In this document: positions 22,447 to 30,956 of the stretch, in pieces
How the letters are laid out: each line of letters starts with the position of its first letter
How positions within the stretch are numbered: position 1 is the first letter of the stretch
From: an uncultured Erysipelotrichaceae bacterium
Lineage (GTDB): Bacteria > Bacillota_I > Bacilli_A > Erysipelotrichales > Erysipelotrichaceae
Length of the DNA stretch: 48,810 nucleotides
Reading direction: 5' to 3'
NCBI GenBank assembly: GCA_902793635.1
Contig: CADBEA010000015.1
Coordinates: 1-48,810, forward strand
The notes under the pieces: generated by a model
What the model was told of the DNA's origin: nothing
Databases searched by the model: none
What the model saw: only the letters and a program-made list of their open reading frames with translations
Position numbers and translations under genes: made by a program

Positions 22447-24972
22447 TTATTCCGGTTTGATGTAGACTTCTCTTGGTTTGGAACCCTGGGCCGGACCGAT
22501 GATACCGTCCGCTTCCAGAGCGTCAATGATACGGGCGCCGCGGTTGTAGCCGATGCCGAAGCGTCTCTGCAGAAGTGACGTCGAGGCTTTCTGAGCCTGG
22601 ATGACATACTCCTTGATTTCCTCATACATCGGATCTTCATTGACGGAGACGATGCCGGCATTGCCGTCCACCCCTTCCAGCATGATGAAGTGGTCGTCGT
22701 ATTCCGGTTTGGCGCGCTTCTTGACATCGTCAGTGATCTGCTTGACTTCGGCATCCGTGACATAGACACCCTGCACACGCTGGGCGGCACTCTGGCCGAT
22801 CGGCATATACAGCATGTCACCGTTGCCGAGCAGACGTTCGGCGCCGATGTGGTCGAGGATCGTACGTGAGTCAATGCCGCTCGATACGGCAAAGGCGATA
22901 CGGCTTGGAATATTGGCCTTGATGATACCGGTGATGACATCGGTCGAAGGACGCTGGGTCGCGACGATCAGATGGATACCGGCGGCACGGGCCAGCTGGG
23001 TGATACGCTGAATCGAGGATTCAACTTCCTTGCCGGCGACAGCCATCAGGTCAGCAAGCTCATCGATGATGACAACGATATACGGCATCGGTTTGGGAGC
23101 CGGTGAACCGTCTTCGTTCGGCCGGCCGCCCTGGGCTTTGACCCGTTCGTTGTATACTTCGATGTTTCTGACACCGCAGGAAGCGAAGACGTTGTAGCGT
23201 TCATCCATCATCTGCACGATGACTTTCAGGGCATTGCTGGCTTTCGTCGGATCGTTGATGACCGGACCGATCAGGTGTGGCACATCATGATACGGCGTGA
23301 ATTCGACCTTCTTCGGGTCGACCAGCAGGAGCTTGACTTCATCCGGCTTCGTGCGCAGCAGCAGTGATGTGATGATCGCGTTCATGCATACCGATTTACC
23401 GGAACCGGTGGCACCGGCGATCAGCAGATGCGGCATCTTGTCAAGCCGGCAGGTAATCGTCTGACCGAGCAGGTCCTTACCGACGACAAACAGCAGTTTG
23501 TTCTGGTTCTCTTTCTGGGAAAGCGAACGGAAGAGTTCACGCATCTTGACCGGTGTCGACTTCACGTTCGGAATTTCCACACCGACAGCGTTGCGGCCGG
23601 GAATCGGCGCTTCGATACGAACGTCACGGGCTGCCAGCTGCATCTTGATGTTGTCAGTCAGACCGATGATGCGGGAAACCTTGACGTTGACATCCGGACG
23701 GATCTCAAACTGGGTGACGGACGGACCGATATGGGTATCGACCAGTTCCGCGTCGATGTCGAAGTTGCGCAGGATAGAGATCAGCAGTTCGCCCTTCTCT
23801 TTCGCGGCTTCTTCGTTTTCCGTATAGGCGGACGTACGCTGCACTTCTTCCAAAAGACGGTACGGATTCGGTGTCTTGTAATTCTTGAACGGATCACGCT
23901 TTTTCTTTTCCGGATTCACAGCTGTCTCAGCCGGTTTTGTCTCAGCCGGTCTGGCCGGTTCTTCCGGTTCTTCAACGACTGGTTCAGGAGCCGGCGTCAG
24001 TTCATCGATATCAATGCTTTCCTGTTCATAATCAGGATAGGCAGGTTCTTCGACAACTTCCGGATAGGCGGGCTTAGCCGGTTTCGGACGGCGTTTGCCC
24101 GGAGCATCCTGCAGCAAATCGTCAATATTGATAAAGACGGATTCCGGTGAGGAAATCGTCTGGCCGGGAATATGAACGACCTGGATCTCACGTGTCTCAT
24201 CATCCGGTGTGATATTGACCAGCGTGGAAAGATACGGTTTGTCCGGCTCTCTCTGCGGATGGGTCTCCAGGATGCTGGTGTCGCTGATCTCCTCCTGGCC
24301 TTCTTCCGCTTTCAGATCAAACTTCTTCTTGCGGTTCTCTTTATGTTTCTGGATGAACTTCCAGATATTGAACGGTTCACGCTGTTTCTTGGCCGGTTTG
24401 TCTTCCCTTTCCGGAACCCGGAAGAATTCAGCCACGGTGGCGAAACTCTTCTTGTATACATCGAGGGATACTGCCAGCAGCATCGCGATGATGAACAGCA
24501 CGGCAATGACCAGCACCGTGCCGCTGCGGCCGAACAGCGAAGAAACAAGACCGAACAGAACGGCACCAAAAATACCGCCGCCCATGGTGGCCTGCACGTC
24601 CGCTTCAAAATAGGAACTGATATCGGTTATAAAGGCACTGGCCGGATCAAAACCGACCGTCCGCGGATCAGTCGCGACATAGGTGCACAGCATCAGCACC
24701 GCGGCGATCATCAGGATCACCGGCAGCGGATTCTGGGGACCTTTCTCATTTCTGTTCAGCAGGCTTACCGCGCTCAGGACGATCACCAGTCCCAGTACCA
24801 GCCAGTACAGTTCACCGAACAGATAACGGAGCACGTTGTAAATAAACGTGCCGATCATGCCGGAACGGGTCAGACCGATAATAATGAATGCAGAAAGGAT
24901 CACAATCGTGATCCATTGTCTGAGTTCCTGATTTTGTTCGCGTCTTTTCTGTGCCTTAGTCTTTCTTGGCAT
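22447..24972 (-). CDS. ftsK: DNA translocase FtsK/SpoIIIE
   Basis: 841 residues. Four or so N-terminal transmembrane segments (about 20-170) anchor it at the septum; a Pro/Glu-rich linker (~250-355) follows. The RecA-like motor has Walker A GATGSGKSVCMNAI, LLLVDPKKVEFTPY, Walker B VVIIDELADLMAV and AGIHLIVATQRPSTDVITG. The C-terminal gamma domain (QKASTSLLQRRFGIGYNRGA) is the winged helix reading KOPS/SRS polarity signals. It pumps chromosomal DNA across the closing septum. GAGGTAGTGA precedes the ATG, 8 nt after the RNase J gene, so these two form a unit. Confidence 0.96.
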   Translation of the reverse strand: MPRKTKAQKRREQNQELRQWITIVILSAFIIIGLTRSGMIGTFIYNVLRYLFGELYWLVLGLVIVLSAVSLLNRNEKGPQNPLPVILMIAAVLMLCTYVATDPRTVGFDPASAFITDISSYFEADVQATMGGGIFGAVLFGLVSSLFGRSGTVLVIAVLFIIAMLLAVSLDVYKKSFATVAEFFRVPEREDKPAKKQREPFNIWKFIQKHKENRKKKFDLKAEEGQEEISDTSILETHPQREPDKPYLSTLVNITPDDETREIQVVHIPGQTISSPESVFINIDDLLQDAPGKRRPKPAKPAYPEVVEEPAYPDYEQESIDIDELTPAPEPVVEEPEEPARPAETKPAETAVNPEKKKRDPFKNYKTPNPYRLLEEVQRTSAYTENEEAAKEKGELLISILRNFDIDAELVDTHIGPSVTQFEIRPDVNVKVSRIIGLTDNIKMQLAARDVRIEAPIPGRNAVGVEIPNVKSTPVKMRELFRSLSQKENQNKLLFVVGKDLLGQTITCRLDKMPHLLIAGATGSGKSVCMNAIITSLLLRTKPDEVKLLLVDPKKVEFTPYHDVPHLIGPVINDPTKASNALKVIVQMMDERYNVFASCGVRNIEVYNERVKAQGGRPNEDGSPAPKPMPYIVVIIDELADLMAVAGKEVESSIQRITQLARAAGIHLIVATQRPSTDVITGIIKANIPSRIAFAVSSGIDSRTILDHIGAERLLGNGDMLYMPIGQSAAQRVQGVYVTDAEVKQITDDVKKRAKPEYDDHFIMLEGVDGNAGIVSVNEDPMYEEIKEYVIQAQKASTSLLQRRFGIGYNRGARIIDALEADGIIGPAQGSKPREVYIKPE

Positions 24973-24980
24973 TCACTACC

Positions 24981-26651
24981 TCATTCAACTTTCGTATTGA
25001 TTTCAACGATGGCCGGCAGGATCATCGGCCGTTTGCCGGTTTCCCGCATGACATAGCGGCTGATCTTTTCCCTTGCTTCCGAGCGGCAGCTGAGATTGTC
25101 ATAGCGGCCGTCACGGACTGCATCGTTGATCGTTTTTTCCATAATATTGCCGACTTCCTTGACAATATAGTCCGCATCCTTCAGATAGATGACACCGCGG
25201 GACTGAACGTCCGGTCCGCCGATGATTTCCTTCGTCGCGTGGTTGACGACGATACCGACGATAATGGCACCGTCCGTGCTGAGGATCTCACGGTCTTTCA
25301 ATATCATACCACTTTCGTCGAGTTTTTCAGATCCGGAAACCAGAACATTGTCAACCGGCACTTTGTCAAACTGTCTCTTCAGGGTGCCGTCCTGGATGAC
25401 GGCGGCCAGACCATTGTCCATGACAATGATCTTGTCGGCATTATAGCCCATGCCGAGGGCGATATTCGCATTGGCGATCAGCTGGCGGTATTCACCCTTG
25501 ACCGGAATGTAGTACTTCGGCTTCATCAGATAGATCATCATTTTCAGATCTTCGATGGAAGCGTGCATCGTGAAGGTACGCTTGGCATCGACGGTCAGCA
25601 CCCTTCCGGCTTCCTTGTAAAGGTCGTCTTCCATGCCCGCTTCATCACGCTCGGTGCCCGGTACAGCCGGCGAAGCGATGATGATCGTGTCGCTCTTGCG
25701 GAATTCGATCATACTGTCTTCCTTGGTCGCGATCTTATGCACTTTGCGGAAGATGGAATCACCGGTGCCGGCGATGATGACCAGCACATTTTCAATGTCG
25801 TTGCGGAACGAGGACGGAGCGATCTCCAGACCGGCCGGCACATGATAATAGCCAAGTTTCGCCATGTCGGCCATCTCGTTGCGCAGTTCGGTGTCATAGA
25901 TCATGATCTTGCGGTTGTATTTGTTGGCCAGTTCAATGACTTCGATGACACGGTAGATATTCTGATTGAACAGCGTGATGAACATTCTGTTTTCCGAATT
26001 CTCAAGATACTGTTCGATCAGCGGTGTGATCCTATGATGCGGGGCGCTGTGGCCTTCACGCGTCGAACCGACGGATTCGCACATCAATGCCAGAACACCG
26101 GCGGTGCCAAGATCGGTGACATTGGAAAGATCAAAGCGGAATGCTTCGTTCTTGGTGTCATAGTCGACGATGAATTCACTCGAATAGACGACATAGCCGT
26201 CTTCCGTGTTGATGGCCACGCCAAAGCCGTCGGCGATCGACTGGGTGGTTCCGAAGGTACGGATTTCCGTCTTGCCGATCTTGAATTTGGCATTGCGCAT
26301 GACGCGGTGGATATTGAGGTCTTTCAGACCCAGTTTCTTCGCCCTTCTCTCAAAGCAGAGAGCGGTCAGCGGCGCCATGTAGACAGGCACCTTCGGCACT
26401 TCCTGCAGCAGGCTGGGCAGAGCCGCCATGACATCGTCGTGGCCGTGCGTTATGAACACGGCTTTGATCCGTTCACGGTTCTCTTTCAGATATGTAAAGT
26501 CGGGAATGATCATCTCGACGCCAAGCTGATCTCCCTCGGGGTATTTCATTCCGCATTCCATAACAAATATGTCATCGTTGTTTTCGACGACATACATGTT
26601 CTTGCCGTCCTCATCCAGGCCGCCAAGCGCAAATATGCGTACGTTGCTCAT
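24981..26651 (-). CDS. Ribonuclease J paralogue with degenerate active site (RnjB-like)
   Basis: 556 residues, the full RNase J length (metallo-beta-lactamase, beta-CASP and C-terminal domains). Overall similarity is clear: FALGGLDEDGKNMYVVE, KAVFITHGHDDV and LMKPKYYIPVKGEYRQL. However, metal-ligand positions are changed. The canonical H-x-H-x-D-H reads HGHDDV (residues 69-74, last His lost). The usual HSIPD is QSIAD (Gln137). The TGDFKFD motif reads SSEFIVD (Asp to Glu159). The HGEY of the C-terminal motif is KGEY. RNase J2 subunits are known to be poorly active partners of RNase J1, so this is probably such a subunit. A good ATCGGAGGATAATACT precedes the ATG; ftsK follows at 8 nt. Confidence 0.88.
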   Translation of the reverse strand: MSNVRIFALGGLDEDGKNMYVVENNDDIFVMECGMKYPEGDQLGVEMIIPDFTYLKENRERIKAVFITHGHDDVMAALPSLLQEVPKVPVYMAPLTALCFERRAKKLGLKDLNIHRVMRNAKFKIGKTEIRTFGTTQSIADGFGVAINTEDGYVVYSSEFIVDYDTKNEAFRFDLSNVTDLGTAGVLALMCESVGSTREGHSAPHHRITPLIEQYLENSENRMFITLFNQNIYRVIEVIELANKYNRKIMIYDTELRNEMADMAKLGYYHVPAGLEIAPSSFRNDIENVLVIIAGTGDSIFRKVHKIATKEDSMIEFRKSDTIIIASPAVPGTERDEAGMEDDLYKEAGRVLTVDAKRTFTMHASIEDLKMMIYLMKPKYYIPVKGEYRQLIANANIALGMGYNADKIIVMDNGLAAVIQDGTLKRQFDKVPVDNVLVSGSEKLDESGMILKDREILSTDGAIIVGIVVNHATKEIIGGPDVQSRGVIYLKDADYIVKEVGNIMEKTINDAVRDGRYDNLSCRSEAREKISRYVMRETGKRPMILPAIVEINTKVE

Positions 26652-26704
26652 AGTATTATCCTCCGATAGCAGTTCATTCTTATTCTATATTATTATACAG
26701 GATA

Positions 26705-28144
26705 TCAGACCGCTTTGCCATCCAGAGAGAAGCTGTGACAGGCCGTGATTTCAACTTCGACGATCTGCCCTTCCAGACCTTCGGGACCGGTGAAATTGAC
26801 CAGTTTGTTATGTTCGGAATAACCGGAATAGACATTCTCGTTTTTCTTTGAGCGGCCTTCGCAGAGCACCTGCAGACGGCGGTGCAGATAGGCGCTGTTG
26901 TTGCGGGAGGCGTGTTCAGCCAGCCGTTCGTTGAGGATCTGCAGACGTTCCTTCTTTACTTCAAGAGGAATCGTATCCTCCATCCGGGCCGCCGGTGTTC
27001 CTTCACGCGGCGAATAGACAAACGAATACGCCATGTCAAAACGGCAGTAATCGACAAGATCAAGTGTCGCCTGGAACTGCTCGTCCGTTTCCTGCGGGAA
27101 GCCGACGATCAGGTCAGTCGTGAAGGTGATGTCCGGGATGCGGGCTTTCATTTCATCGACCAGCTTCTTAAAGGCGTCACTGGTGTAGCCGCGGTTCATG
27201 CGGCGCAGTACTTCATCACTGCCCGACTGCACCGGCAGATGCAGGGACGGCATGATGTTGGGATATTCCTTCATCGCGTCGATCGTCGTGACGCTGTAGT
27301 CACGCGGATGTGATGTATAGAAGCGGATCCGGTCGATACCGGTTTCCGCTGTCGCTTTCAGCAGTTCGGTAAACCCGTCTTCCAGACCCAGGTCCTTGCC
27401 GTAGGCGTTGACGTTCTGCCCGAGCAGAACGACTTCCTTCGCACCGGATTCCTTCAGCTGTCTGACTTCGTTGATAATATCTTCCTGACGGCGGGAGCGT
27501 TCCTTGCCGCGGGTATAGGGCACGATGCAGTAGGTGCAGAACTTGTTGCAGCCATACATGATATTGACGTAGCCCTTGCAGGTGCTTGAGCGACGCACCG
27601 GCAGATTTTCAATGACTCTGCCCTCTTCCGACAGCACTTCGACAACTCTTTCATGCGTCTGGCTGACCTGGTACAGAAGATCCGGCAGCCGGAAGACATT
27701 GTGGGTGCCGAAAATCAGATCGACCTGGCGGTAGCTGTCGAGGACCCGTCTGACGATGGCTTCTTCCTGGGCCATGCAGCCGCAAAGAGCGATCACTCTG
27801 TCCGGATGTTCCTTCTTCCACGGTTTCAGGAAACCGATCTCGCCGAGCACCCTCTCTTCAGCCGCCTGCCGTACCGCGCAGGTATTGAAGATCAGCACAT
27901 CGCCTTCCTCGGGAACCTCGGTGCGGGTATAGCCCATCAGTTCCAGCATACCGGCCATCGTTTCGCCATCCCGTACATTGGCCTGACAGCCGTAGGTGCG
28001 GATGTAGTATTTCTTTCCCTGGCCGAGCCGGGCCGCGCTGTCACTCAGCCGGAACATGTCGTCCTGGATATCAGCAGCCGTCTTTGACCGGCGGGCCGCC
28101 TGCTTCTGATCAGGGAGGATATAGTTTTCTTCTTTTCTTTTCAT
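26705..28144 (-). CDS. miaB: tRNA-2-methylthio-N6-dimethylallyladenosine synthase
   Basis: 479 residues. The N-terminal UPF0004 domain holds three Fe-S cysteines: YGCQANVRDGE, FNTCAVR and LCGCMAQE. The radical-SAM core has CNKFCTYCIVPYTRG (C-x3-C-x2-C). The C-terminal TRAM domain starts near RRLQVLCEG. MiaB adds the 2-methylthio group to i6A37 of tRNAs reading UNN codons. No Shine-Dalgarno is visible: TATAAT (28152-28157) ends 7 nt before the ATG, so a leaderless mRNA is predicted. The ferredoxin gene's terminator lies directly upstream. Confidence 0.95.
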   Translation of the reverse strand: MKRKEENYILPDQKQAARRSKTAADIQDDMFRLSDSAARLGQGKKYYIRTYGCQANVRDGETMAGMLELMGYTRTEVPEEGDVLIFNTCAVRQAAEERVLGEIGFLKPWKKEHPDRVIALCGCMAQEEAIVRRVLDSYRQVDLIFGTHNVFRLPDLLYQVSQTHERVVEVLSEEGRVIENLPVRRSSTCKGYVNIMYGCNKFCTYCIVPYTRGKERSRRQEDIINEVRQLKESGAKEVVLLGQNVNAYGKDLGLEDGFTELLKATAETGIDRIRFYTSHPRDYSVTTIDAMKEYPNIMPSLHLPVQSGSDEVLRRMNRGYTSDAFKKLVDEMKARIPDITFTTDLIVGFPQETDEQFQATLDLVDYCRFDMAYSFVYSPREGTPAARMEDTIPLEVKKERLQILNERLAEHASRNNSAYLHRRLQVLCEGRSKKNENVYSGYSEHNKLVNFTGPEGLEGQIVEVEITACHSFSLDGKAV

Positions 28145-28151
28145 AGGCGTA

Positions 28152-28157
28152 ATTATA
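28152..28157 (-). promoter_or_regulatory. -10 box of a predicted leaderless miaB promoter
   Basis: TATAAT on the minus strand followed by TACGCCT and the ATG. The T-run of the upstream terminator falls where a -35 element would be; no proper TTGACA is visible. Confidence 0.55.
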
Positions 28158-28173
28158 GCAGTTTCAAAACCAG

Positions 28174-28201
28174 AAAAAAACTGACATTTCTGTCAGCTTT
28201 T
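28174..28201. terminator. Terminator of the ferredoxin gene
   Basis: CTGACA (28181-28186) and TGTCAG (28191-28196) with A/T runs on both sides. On the minus strand it follows the ferredoxin stop and ends in seven T. Confidence 0.8.
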
Positions 28202-28206
28202 TCTTA

Positions 28207-28386
28207 TTATTCCTTTTCTTTGATTGCTTCTACAGGGCAGACACCTGTGCAGGAGAGGCATGTTACACAAACATCCTCATTGCATACGGACTTTCCTTCG
28301 TCATCTAAAGACAGGGCTTCGACCGGGCATACACCTACGCATGCGCCGCAGCCTACGCATAAATCTCTATCAATTGTTACTGGCAT
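28207..28386 (-). CDS. 2[4Fe-4S] ferredoxin, clostridial type
   Basis: 59 residues. Two clusters are bound by CVGCGACVGVCP and CVTCLSCTGVCP, each a C-x2-C-x2-C-x3-CP motif; residues between and after them (PVEALSLDD, PVEAIKEKE) are typical. It carries electrons in the cytoplasm for anaerobic metabolism, for example to hydrogenase or pyruvate oxidoreductase. The start at 28386 has GAGGAGGAAAGTATC before it; an in-frame ATG at 28437 lies upstream of the promoter's -10 box. It is monocistronic, with a strong promoter and a terminator. Confidence 0.95.
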   Translation of the reverse strand: MPVTIDRDLCVGCGACVGVCPVEALSLDDEGKSVCNEDVCVTCLSCTGVCPVEAIKEKE

Positions 28387-28408
28387 GATACTTTCCTCCT
28401 CTAAGGTG

Positions 28409-28437
28409 ATTATAATACTGTTTTGACCGCGATTCAA
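28409..28437 (-). promoter_or_regulatory. Strong promoter of the ferredoxin gene
   Basis: On the minus strand, -35 TTGAAT (28432-28437) and -10 TATAAT (28409-28414) are exactly 17 bp apart, with a good ribosome site downstream. Confidence 0.8.
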
Positions 28438-28490
28438 TATAGTGTGATTTGTGAATCACTACGATTTTTCATGGTATTTAACAATGTAAA

Positions 28491-29261
28491 TCATTCCGGC
28501 CGTTTCTGGATCCGGGTGATCCGGACAGCCCGGTTTGTCACATCATCCACTTCGATCAGACAGCCGCAGATCACGACGCGTCCGGAAGCGGGTTTATAGT
28601 AAGTCGGCATGTCATCAAGCAGACGGGCCAGCACTTCACCGGTATCCCGGCCGAGCACACTGTCATAGGGTCCGCACATGCCGGTATCGGTAATAAAGGC
28701 ACAGCCGTTGATGATCGTTTCATCCGCTGTCTGAACATGTGTGTGGGTGCCGATCACCGCTGTTACCTTCTCAGAGAAATAACGCGCGAAAAGGATCTTT
28801 TCACTGGTGGCTTCACCATGCAGGTCGACAATGATGATGTCAGCTTCGAGTCCCTTCATCAGTTCTTCCATGACGAGGATCGGATGCGCTGTCGCATTCA
28901 TGAAGGCAATGCCGAGAATGTTGATAACAGCAATGCGTTTGCCGCAGCACTCTTTGATGACACAGGAACTGCCGGCATGCAGTGGTTCCATATTGGCCGG
29001 CCGGATCATGGCGGGACAGTCATTGATATCATCAATGATCTCGCGCTTGGAAAATGCGTGATTTCCGAGTGTGATGACATCGGCTCCGGCAGCTATCAGC
29101 TGTTTGTAAATCTTTTTGGTGATGCCTTTTCCGTGAGCCGCATTTTCACCGTTGACAATAGTGAAATCTGCTCCGTACTCACGCTGCAGGGCAGGAAGAT
29201 CACGTACCACTGCTTCGCGGCCGCTGCGGGCGACCACGTCACCTAGAAACAGGATATTCAT
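28491..29261 (-). CDS. ymdB: YmdB-family metallophosphoesterase
   Basis: 256 residues (family ~260). Motifs: MNILFLGDVVARSGREAV (first Asp ligand), VNGENAAHGKGITKKI, ITLGNHAFSKREI (Asn-His), VDLHGEATSEK and VIGTHTHVQTADETI. These are the calcineurin-like metal ligands of the YmdB family, a 2',3'-cyclic nucleotide phosphodiesterase that affects biofilm and mRNA turnover in Bacillus. The gene lies downstream of rny, as is common in Bacillota. No ribosome site lies at normal distance: the nearest purine run, GGAAGGG, is about 12 nt from the ATG and inside a hairpin (29272-29287). A regulated start is possible. Confidence 0.92.
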   Translation of the reverse strand: MNILFLGDVVARSGREAVVRDLPALQREYGADFTIVNGENAAHGKGITKKIYKQLIAAGADVITLGNHAFSKREIIDDINDCPAMIRPANMEPLHAGSSCVIKECCGKRIAVINILGIAFMNATAHPILVMEELMKGLEADIIIVDLHGEATSEKILFARYFSEKVTAVIGTHTHVQTADETIINGCAFITDTGMCGPYDSVLGRDTGEVLARLLDDMPTYYKPASGRVVICGCLIEVDDVTNRAVRITRIQKRPE

Positions 29262-29271
29262 TGAAACAAAA

Positions 29272-29302
29272 GCCCTTCCGACAGGGCAGAGAAAAACCCT
29301 GT
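29272..29302 (-). promoter_or_regulatory. Candidate switch in the ymdB leader: two mutually exclusive hairpins
   Basis: On the minus strand the first hairpin is ACAGGG (29297-29302) with CCCTGT (29281-29286). The second is GCCCT (29283-29287) with AGGGC (29272-29276), followed by TTTTGTTT. The middle arm is shared, so only one can form. The second looks like a weak terminator and also hides the only purine-rich ribosome-site-like sequence. The function is inferred. Confidence 0.4.
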
Positions 29303-29354
29303 CTATTTATGGCCTAATCATATCATGAAAAGCATGGCAGTTCATACGAAAGCA

Positions 29355-29394
29355 CAAAAAAAGAACACCAGAAATCTGTATGTTCTGATGTTCT
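29355..29394 (-). terminator. Terminator of rny
   Basis: On the minus strand AGAACATCAGAA (29383-29394) pairs with TTCTGGTGTTCT (29362-29373), one mismatch, and ends in seven T. It separates rny from ymdB. Confidence 0.8.
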
Positions 29395-29402
29395 CTGTAA
29401 GA

Positions 29403-30956
29403 TCAGCGGGCAAGTTCCTGAACACGCAGTTCGCGGATCAGGGTGACCTTGATCTGACCCGGATAGGTCAGCTCATTTTCAATGCGTTCGCGGATATCAT
29501 GGGCGATCTTGACCATTGTGATATCGTCGACAACTTCCGGCTTGACCATAACTCTGACTTCACGGCCGGCCTGGATGGCAAACGCCTTCTCAACGCCTTC
29601 GAATTCACCGGCCAGCTTCTCGAGAGCTTCCAGACGGTTGATATAACCTTCCATGGACTCATAGCGGGCCCCCGGACGGGCAGCTGACAGTGTATCAGCG
29701 GCAGCGACGAGGATGGCGATGATATCGCTTGGTTCGCTGTCACCGTGATGGGAAGCGATGGCATTGACAACGATCTCGTTTTCACCGTACTTCTTGGCAA
29801 CCTTGACGCCGAGGTCGACGTGTGAGCCTTCCTGTTCGAAGTCAAGTGCTTTGCCGATGTCATGGAGAAGACCGGCACGTTTTGCCAGGACCTGGTTCAG
29901 ACCGAGTTCAGCAGCCATCATGCCGGCAAACGTCGCGACTTCAATGGAGTGTTCCAGACCGTTCTGGCCATAACTGTAACGGAAACGCAGACGTCCGAGC
30001 AGACGGATCAGTTCTTTGTTCATACGGCCGATACCGAGTTTGAAGATGGCATCATTGCCGATCCGGAAGATCGTGTCTTCCAGTTCTTTTGTGACTTTTT
30101 CAACGACTTCCTCGATGCGGCCCGGCTGAATACGGCCGTCCTTCATGAGGATCTCGAGAGACTGTCTGGCAATCTCACGGCGGATCGGATCAAAGCAGGA
30201 CACAGTGATGATATCCGGTGTGTCATCGATGATCAGATCGACACCGGTAGCCTGTTCGATTGCCTTGATATTGCGGCCTTCACGGCCGATGATACGGCCC
30301 TTCATTTCTTCACTCGGCAGGGTCACGGTCGCGACGGTTCTTTCGATCGTCTCTTCCTGTGAGTATCTCTGAATGGCCAGAGAGATGATGTTTCTGGCAT
30401 TCTCGGCAGCTTTTGTTTCTGCTTCTTCCTGCTGTTCGTGAAGATAGGCGGCGATTTCCTTCTCCGTCCGTTTTTCAACGATTTCCATCAGTTCCTTTTT
30501 GGCGTCTTCCTGAGTCATGTTGGAAACACGCTCAAGAACGGTAATTTCATCGTTGATCTTCTGTCTGAGTTCTTCCTCCATTTTGCTGAGATTTGCAAGT
30601 TTGGAATCAGCGAGCTTTTCCTTCTCGCTGACTTTCTTTTCTTTTTGGACAAGATTCTCTTCACGGAAATTCAGACTGTCCTCGCGGCGAACGAGTTTGT
30701 TTTCAGTCTGCTGAATTTTATCACGCTGACTTTTGATTTCCTTTTCAGCCTGAAGTTTCATTTCGTAAACCTGCTGTTTACCGTCAAGGTTAGCCTGACG
30801 GATCGTGGTTTCCGCTTTTGAATTTGCTTCATCAAGAATATCCTGAGACTTTTCCCGGGAACGGTCCAGTCCCATTTTGCCGGCAATCATCATGATTCCG
30901 ATGCCGATCGCAACACCTACAATACCAGCGAACAGGAAGATGATAGAATTTGGCAT
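29403..30956 (-). CDS. rny: Ribonuclease Y
   Basis: 517 residues (family ~520). One N-terminal transmembrane helix (about 4-24), a long charged coiled coil (~30-200, e.g. REENLVQKEKKVSEKEKL), a KH domain (GRIIGREGRNIKAIEQATGV) and an HD domain with GLLHDIGKALDFE and ASHHGD. RNase Y is the membrane-bound endonuclease that starts mRNA decay in many Gram-positive bacteria and works with RNase J and a CshA-type helicase. GGGGAGGAGAAATT precedes the ATG. It has its own promoter and terminator. Confidence 0.97.
   Translation of the reverse strand: MPNSIIFLFAGIVGVAIGIGIMMIAGKMGLDRSREKSQDILDEANSKAETTIRQANLDGKQQVYEMKLQAEKEIKSQRDKIQQTENKLVRREDSLNFREENLVQKEKKVSEKEKLADSKLANLSKMEEELRQKINDEITVLERVSNMTQEDAKKELMEIVEKRTEKEIAAYLHEQQEEAETKAAENARNIISLAIQRYSQEETIERTVATVTLPSEEMKGRIIGREGRNIKAIEQATGVDLIIDDTPDIITVSCFDPIRREIARQSLEILMKDGRIQPGRIEEVVEKVTKELEDTIFRIGNDAIFKLGIGRMNKELIRLLGRLRFRYSYGQNGLEHSIEVATFAGMMAAELGLNQVLAKRAGLLHDIGKALDFEQEGSHVDLGVKVAKKYGENEIVVNAIASHHGDSEPSDIIAILVAAADTLSAARPGARYESMEGYINRLEALEKLAGEFEGVEKAFAIQAGREVRVMVKPEVVDDITMVKIAHDIRERIENELTYPGQIKVTLIRELRVQELAR

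Follow-up and report, generated by a model that had tools for sequence, protein, structure and literature searches.

An RNase J2 orthologue with an altered metal site in an Erysipelotrichaceae bacterium, and graded replacement of metal ligands among its relatives

Introduction

The role of RNase J2 is unsettled: its active site is dispensable in some species, while elsewhere J2 does cut RNA. The question is raised by a gene on contig CADBEA010000015.1 of an uncultured Erysipelotrichaceae bacterium, which encodes a full-length RNase J paralogue in which several of the residues that would hold the catalytic metals are replaced. What could such a protein do, and is it kept? Here we call the gene product window J2, the window being the whole 48,810-nt stretch of DNA that was analysed.

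Window J2 is an RNase J2 orthologue

The gene (rnjB) is read on the minus strand from an ATG start at 26651 to 24981 and encodes 556 amino acids. The genome amounts to 2.43 Mb in 79 contigs, and a goat ileum MAG assigned to Solobacterium sp. is the nearest named record that has the J2 gene, with 99% identity. Window J2 scores 412.3 bits (residues 4–548) against the RNase J family model TIGR00649, above the curated cut-off of 400, and 410 bits against the RNase J1 model NF047419, below the cut-off of 820, and is therefore an RNase J but not a J1. Both the beta-CASP and the C-terminal RNase J Pfam domains were found, the latter (PF17770, a dimerisation-type domain) at residues 450–551 (24999..25304, minus strand) with 85.4 bits, compared with 90.5 bits in the J1 of the same genome. 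This J1, at G000:C4:26002-27645, is the second, active-type RNase J that the original prediction, made from the letters alone, had said should be looked for; it is a full-length, canonical protein that passes the J1 model with 834 and 825 bits in two scans (cut-off 820). The two paralogues are alike in family and domain order, but J1 keeps all seven metal ligands and they share only 25% identity.

We made an alignment of 113 RNase J rows, which reach from the window's genus into other families of the same class, together with three solved chains; after 15 near duplicates were dropped and the seven ligand columns removed, 98 rows went into a tree. One branch, with an SH-aLRT of 100 (from a quick search with no bootstrap, three rows having very long branches), splits 26 J1 rows from 72 J2 rows. 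On the J1 side are B. subtilis J1, S. epidermidis J1 and the J1 of the window genome, and all 26 rows read HHDHHDH at the ligand places. On the other side are window J2 and S. epidermidis J2, and none of the 72 rows has all seven ligands. Membership of this clade, together with the ligand split, makes window J2 an RNase J2 orthologue, and the J2-like identity suggested originally is upheld.

The AlphaFold model of window J2 (mean pLDDT 81, pTM 0.73) is closest to S. epidermidis RNase J2 (Z 43.3, rmsd 2.4 over 427 residues, the catalytic part), with other RNase J chains within about 7 Z, so that fold alone cannot tell J2 from J1. Its top Foldseek match, over the full length, was the RNJ2-RNJ1 integrative model 9a5v. 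This likeness is at the level of the fold; with a full-length rmsd of 12 A to 9a5v, the domain arrangement in our model is not reliable.

Four of seven metal ligands are replaced

Ligands are numbered here after S. epidermidis J1 (H74, H76, D78, H79, H142, D164 and H390), in which, as described in PMC7864078, metal 1 is held by His74, His76, His142 and Asp164 and metal 2 by Asp78, His79, Asp164 and His390. The matching places in window J2 (residues 69, 71, 73, 74, 137, 159 and 385) read HHDVQEK. Compared with the two-metal J1-type site (HxHxDH plus His142, Asp164 and His390), four of the seven ligands are thus replaced, namely H79V, H142Q, D164E and H390K, with D164E a mild replacement. The motif HGHDDV (residues 69–74; 26430..26447, minus strand) keeps H69, H71 and D73 and has V74 in place of H79. 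On the same strand, Q137 (26241..26243) lies in a TTQSIAD motif at the place of the site-1 ligand His142, E159 (26175..26177) in SSEF at that of the bridging Asp164, and K385 (25497..25499) in VKGEY at that of the site-2 ligand His390.

The presence of Val and Lys at second-metal places is as in other J2s, which are described in PMC5383250 as having no conserved second-metal ligands. No substitute ligand for site 2 (V74, K385) is visible in the window J2 sequence; judged by its residues, this site is gone, and could not be rebuilt from the Val and Lys. Site 1 appears weakened (Gln, Glu), with two His and a carboxylate remaining, and a single metal could bind via H69, H71, D73 and E159, which makes "altered or low activity" a safer description than "dead". 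The same string, HHDVQEK, is found in 78 of the 89 distinct J2 sequences that are 500 aa or longer and more than 45% identical to window J2 (a count that omits three shorter rows, which make up two distinct sequences), and the ligand losses are therefore no sequencing accident.

The best point of comparison is S. epidermidis RNase J2 (PDB 6k6w, 8yyk; PMC7864078), which belongs to the same clade and has the same fold, at about 28% identity in a structural alignment. It reads HHHAHEQ, so that it too has four of seven ligands replaced, site 2 lost and the bridging Asp changed to Glu. It differs in having His144 and His80 where window J2 has Q137 and D73, and Gln rather than Lys at the last ligand place. 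The one-metal site of the S. epidermidis type (His76, His78, His80, His144, Glu166) is consequently matched by window J2 in two His and the Glu, with Asp and Gln at the other two places. While the original prediction was right in its reading of HGHDDV, Gln137, Glu159 and KGEY, its impression that the loss exceeds that of known J2s holds for the site-1 His and not for the number of ligands lost.

In the window's genus, J2 is under purifying selection about as strong as that on J1

Within the window's genus, dN/dS of J2 was 0.068–0.112 in those five of seven pairs that gave a computable dS (0.045 in an eighth pair), and that of J1 in the same genomes was 0.062–0.109 in those six of seven that did so, all rough figures because dS is near saturation. 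Purifying selection on J2 is thus about as strong as on J1 in this genus, and with ratios of 0.05–0.11 the earlier description of J2 as a maintained protein is borne out. The divergence ratio of J2 to J1 within the genus was 1.43 for the C-terminal domain, 1.25 for the N-terminal metallo-lactamase part and 1.96 for the beta-CASP part; the C-terminal domain evolves slowly in J1 and J2 alike, and the beta-CASP part is the most relaxed. We also considered a shift of constraint to the dimerisation domain, which is unsupported within the genus, the C-terminal ratio being 1.43 against 1.25 at the N-terminus; this counts against the subunit role discussed below.

The former metal pocket is not drifting freely either. 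In 58 aligned J2s its seven former ligand places have a mean entropy of 0.19 bits against a column median of 0.71; values as low occurred in 55 of 20,000 random column sets (874 of 20,000 for the four substituted places), so that these columns are more conserved than random sets.

Two positions outside the ligand set distinguish the paralogues. In window J2 numbering, Glu is found at 334 in 96% of 79 J2 rows, the commonest J1 residue there reaching only 24%, and Asp at 312 in 92% of the J2 rows, where J1 has His in 97%; S. epidermidis J2 shares the Glu but not the Asp. These residues, encoded at about 25650-25718 of the window, are candidate sites of J2-specific function and look like residues for a task particular to J2 and independent of metal.

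Gene neighbourhood

Downstream of J2, on the same strand, an ftsK/spoIIIE-type DNA translocase gene (22447..24972, minus strand, 841 aa) starts 8 bases past the J2 stop, and its GAGG-type ribosome site overlaps that stop. Given this 8-base gap, cotranscription of J2 and ftsK is plausible. Upstream, miaB (26705..28144, minus strand, 479 aa) ends 53 bases before J2, and a candidate promoter-like site (ATGGCA, 18, TATAAT; 26692..26721, minus strand), which is a consensus match only, lies before J2. Such sites number 14 in the region against 7.6 expected from shuffles; given this one, J2 may be read together with miaB and also alone.

This order is nearly fixed among relatives. Among loci with room, ftsK follows J2 in 72 of 73 from Erysipelotrichaceae, in 14 of 15 from another family of the same order (f2) and in 9 of 18 from other families; miaB stands just before J2 in 73 of 76 Erysipelotrichaceae loci, in none of 16 in f2 and in none of 19 elsewhere. 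In B. subtilis, too, rnjB presumably lies near spoIIIE.

Two further observations concern the locus. Directly upstream of J2, 26705-30956 on the minus strand holds miaB, a TIGR00282 metallophosphoesterase and RNase Y, so that one cluster contains both RNase Y and RNase J2; a comparison of this RNase Y with solved structures gave no match. The strand opposite J2 is open across the whole gene (24966-26669, plus strand, 567 aa from a TTG start). Other genes of the window also have long opposite-strand frames, suggesting that this one probably reflects codon usage and is not a gene.

A probable subunit role for window J2

We consider it probable that window J2 acts in a J1:J2 complex as a subunit with low or no catalytic activity, much as CPSF100 or INTS9 do in theirs. 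Since site 2 is lost and site 1 weakened, a partner role is the simplest reading. The gene is the rnjB orthologue of a Solobacterium/Bulleidia-type Erysipelotrichaceae bacterium, and its product keeps the fold of an RNase J and its dimerisation-type C-terminal domain but has an altered metal site; by itself it would show hardly any nuclease activity, if any. The J1 from another part of the genome would cut RNA, and J2 would be the second subunit, stabilising or tuning J1 and perhaps holding RNA. Orthology, ligand state, conservation, purifying selection and the presence of a canonical J1 come from the present analysis; complex formation and loss of activity are extrapolated from experiments in S. 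aureus, S. epidermidis, B. subtilis and E. faecalis.

That work does not speak with one voice. In S. aureus, J2 with two active-site His replaced supports growth like wild type while deletion of J2 harms growth, and inactive J1 partly substitutes for J2; on these grounds a mainly structural role was put forward for S. aureus J2 (PMC3937233). B. subtilis J1 and J2 (YmfA/RnjB) are reported to form heteromers, and the exonuclease activity of J2 to be poor (PMC4419217). Active-site mutants of E. faecalis J2 bind J1 with a KD of 81–89 nM, about as well as wild type, but the H69A and H71A variants did not restore pilus production (PMC5383250), which indicates that J2 activity can matter.

Such activity would be retained if window J2 were a one-metal nuclease with altered activity of its own, as proposed for S. 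epidermidis J2, which binds a single Mn at site 1 (His76, His78, His80, His144, Glu166) and is a weak endonuclease at high concentration (PMC7864078). The kept H69, H71, D73 and E159 could hold one metal, and H69, D73, E159 and H363 are invariant in all 58 aligned J2s, with H71 present in 55. However, the equivalent of His144 is Gln (Q137) in 52 of the 58 and His in only three, that of His80 is Asp, and the place of the J1 phosphate-contact His364 is a variable column, T359 in window J2. Moreover, 14 of the 72 J2 rows in the tree have six or seven ligands replaced and are still retained, so the function shared by J2s seems not to need metal. We regard a one-metal nuclease as quite unlikely.

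The conservation of the substitutes themselves bears on another possibility, that the pocket has been rebuilt, with Lys385 standing in for the second metal, as a metal-free site that binds the 5' ends of RNA or some other ligand and lets J2 sense or capture RNA for J1. V74 and K385 are each found in 56 of the 58 sequences, Q137 is as frequent as stated above, and Lys occupies the last ligand place in 35 of the 72 rows of the J2 clade, more often than any other residue. On the other hand, the residue there is Ile, Gln, Ser, Met or Thr in further J2 lineages (and His in three of the 72 rows), and binding of RNA or another ligand by the rebuilt pocket is putative. A metal-free binding site of this kind, which would refine the J1:J2 subunit reading and not oppose it, seems to us rather improbable. 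As for a decaying remnant of a duplicated RNase J, which the missing catalytic residues might suggest, the reading frame is open, selection on it resembles that on J1, the paralogy is old in the tree and the genes beside it hardly vary across 80 named loci; dN/dS and gene order together rule out a pseudogene, and we give this explanation next to no weight.

A subunit of a J1:J2 complex might be expected beside a J1. Both paralogues were seen in 52 of 60 relatives (fragments included). A renewed search of 12 genomes with the J1 model did not find J1 in eight, all of which have J2; four of the J1-less genomes with J2 (G011, G046, G069 and G148) are drafts at 92–98% completeness, and in drafts the absence of J1 may stem from missing contigs. 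Another of the 12, G098, has neither J1 nor J2. A strict pairing of J1 with J2 was considered, but these counts do not prove that one paralogue always accompanies the other, which is a point against the subunit reading.

Graded loss of metal ligands across the J2 clade

Proteins of the RNase J2 kind are already known, and the Lys/Gln/Glu/Val pocket of window J2 is unusual; the more interesting result is the stepwise-to-complete loss of the metal site across the J2 clade. Among its 72 rows, replacement is most frequent at His390 (69 rows), followed by His79 (52), Asp164 (36), His142 (29) and Asp78 (21), and rarest at His74 and His76 (17 each). One ligand is replaced in 15 rows, two in 11, three in 16, four in 13, five in three, six in nine and all seven in five. 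In f2, all 16 distinct J2 sequences with 500 aa or more read HHDVHEK or HHDAHEK; since they keep the site-1 His, its loss most likely came later and within the window's own family.

The most degraded J2s (NAYNSDK, DKESGNQ and similar) occur in genomes that read TGA as Trp, most of them small. Their families use code 4, and we take them to be mollicute-type, a label based on the reassigned TGA codon. J2s with five to seven of the seven ligands replaced belong to genomes of 0.6–2.1 Mb, and the J1 rows from the families of the degraded J2s (f5, f16, f23-f26) keep all seven. Four degraded J2s match the RNase J family model along its entire length; two of them exceed the curated cut-off, with 421 and 429 bits, and the other two fall short of it, with 280 and 270 bits. 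In a Pfam scan of one of the four the metallo-lactamase domain went unrecognised, and the C-terminal and beta-CASP domains were recognised.

These data are consistent with a reading of the whole group to which we give slightly less than an even chance: that J2 is a pseudonuclease that lost its metal site stepwise and was kept all the same, with His390 lost at the outset, His79 after it, Asp164 and His142 next, and all seven ligands in TGA-reading (mollicute-type) genomes. J2 would be a metal-independent subunit that tunes J1, with a pocket re-specified around Lys in the window's order, and a bacterial counterpart of CPSF100 and INTS9. CPSF100 is the inactive partner of CPSF73 and has lost its metal ligands. 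As with J2 and J1, a metallo-lactamase beta-CASP paralogue that has lost metal ligands, CPSF100 or INTS9, stands beside an active one, CPSF73 or INTS11. INTS9 is described as a pseudoenzyme that has lost its HxHxDH ligands (PMC7980224). Unlike J2, they are eukaryotic, work in larger multi-subunit machines and have a separate origin, so that the likeness is one of working mode only.

A metal-independent J2, if that is what it is, would explain why the gene is retained even in genomes smaller than 1 Mb. The graded loss is likewise relevant to the minimal genome Syn3.0, whose retention of RnjB was called unexpected (PMC4993169). A study of mollicute translation genes reads J2, with a caveat, as an active nuclease (PMC4014445), and our results warn that not every J2 should be so read. 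J2s that lack some or all of the metal site and yet stay under J1-like selection, as measured in the window's genus, separate the structural from the cutting role in nature, making the question of what J2 does a testable one. In the literature searched, mostly open papers, we found no earlier account of graded ligand loss in J2 or of the Lys pocket.

Several individual loci may be recorded here. J2s of TGA-reading genomes with five to seven of the seven ligands replaced are found at L165, L176, L187, L189, L192-L194, L216 and L217, and also at L223, L224, L228, L229, L231 and L232. Erysipelotrichaceae J2s at L133, L144 and L148 have His at position 385 and are nested among Lys-bearing ones; because of these three rows in a Lys-bearing family, counting His390 losses as irreversible yields 15 of them. 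It is possible that the three regained His, a point beyond proof by the tree. At L114, L118, L120 and L141 the second His of HxHxD is Asn as well, one step past window J2.
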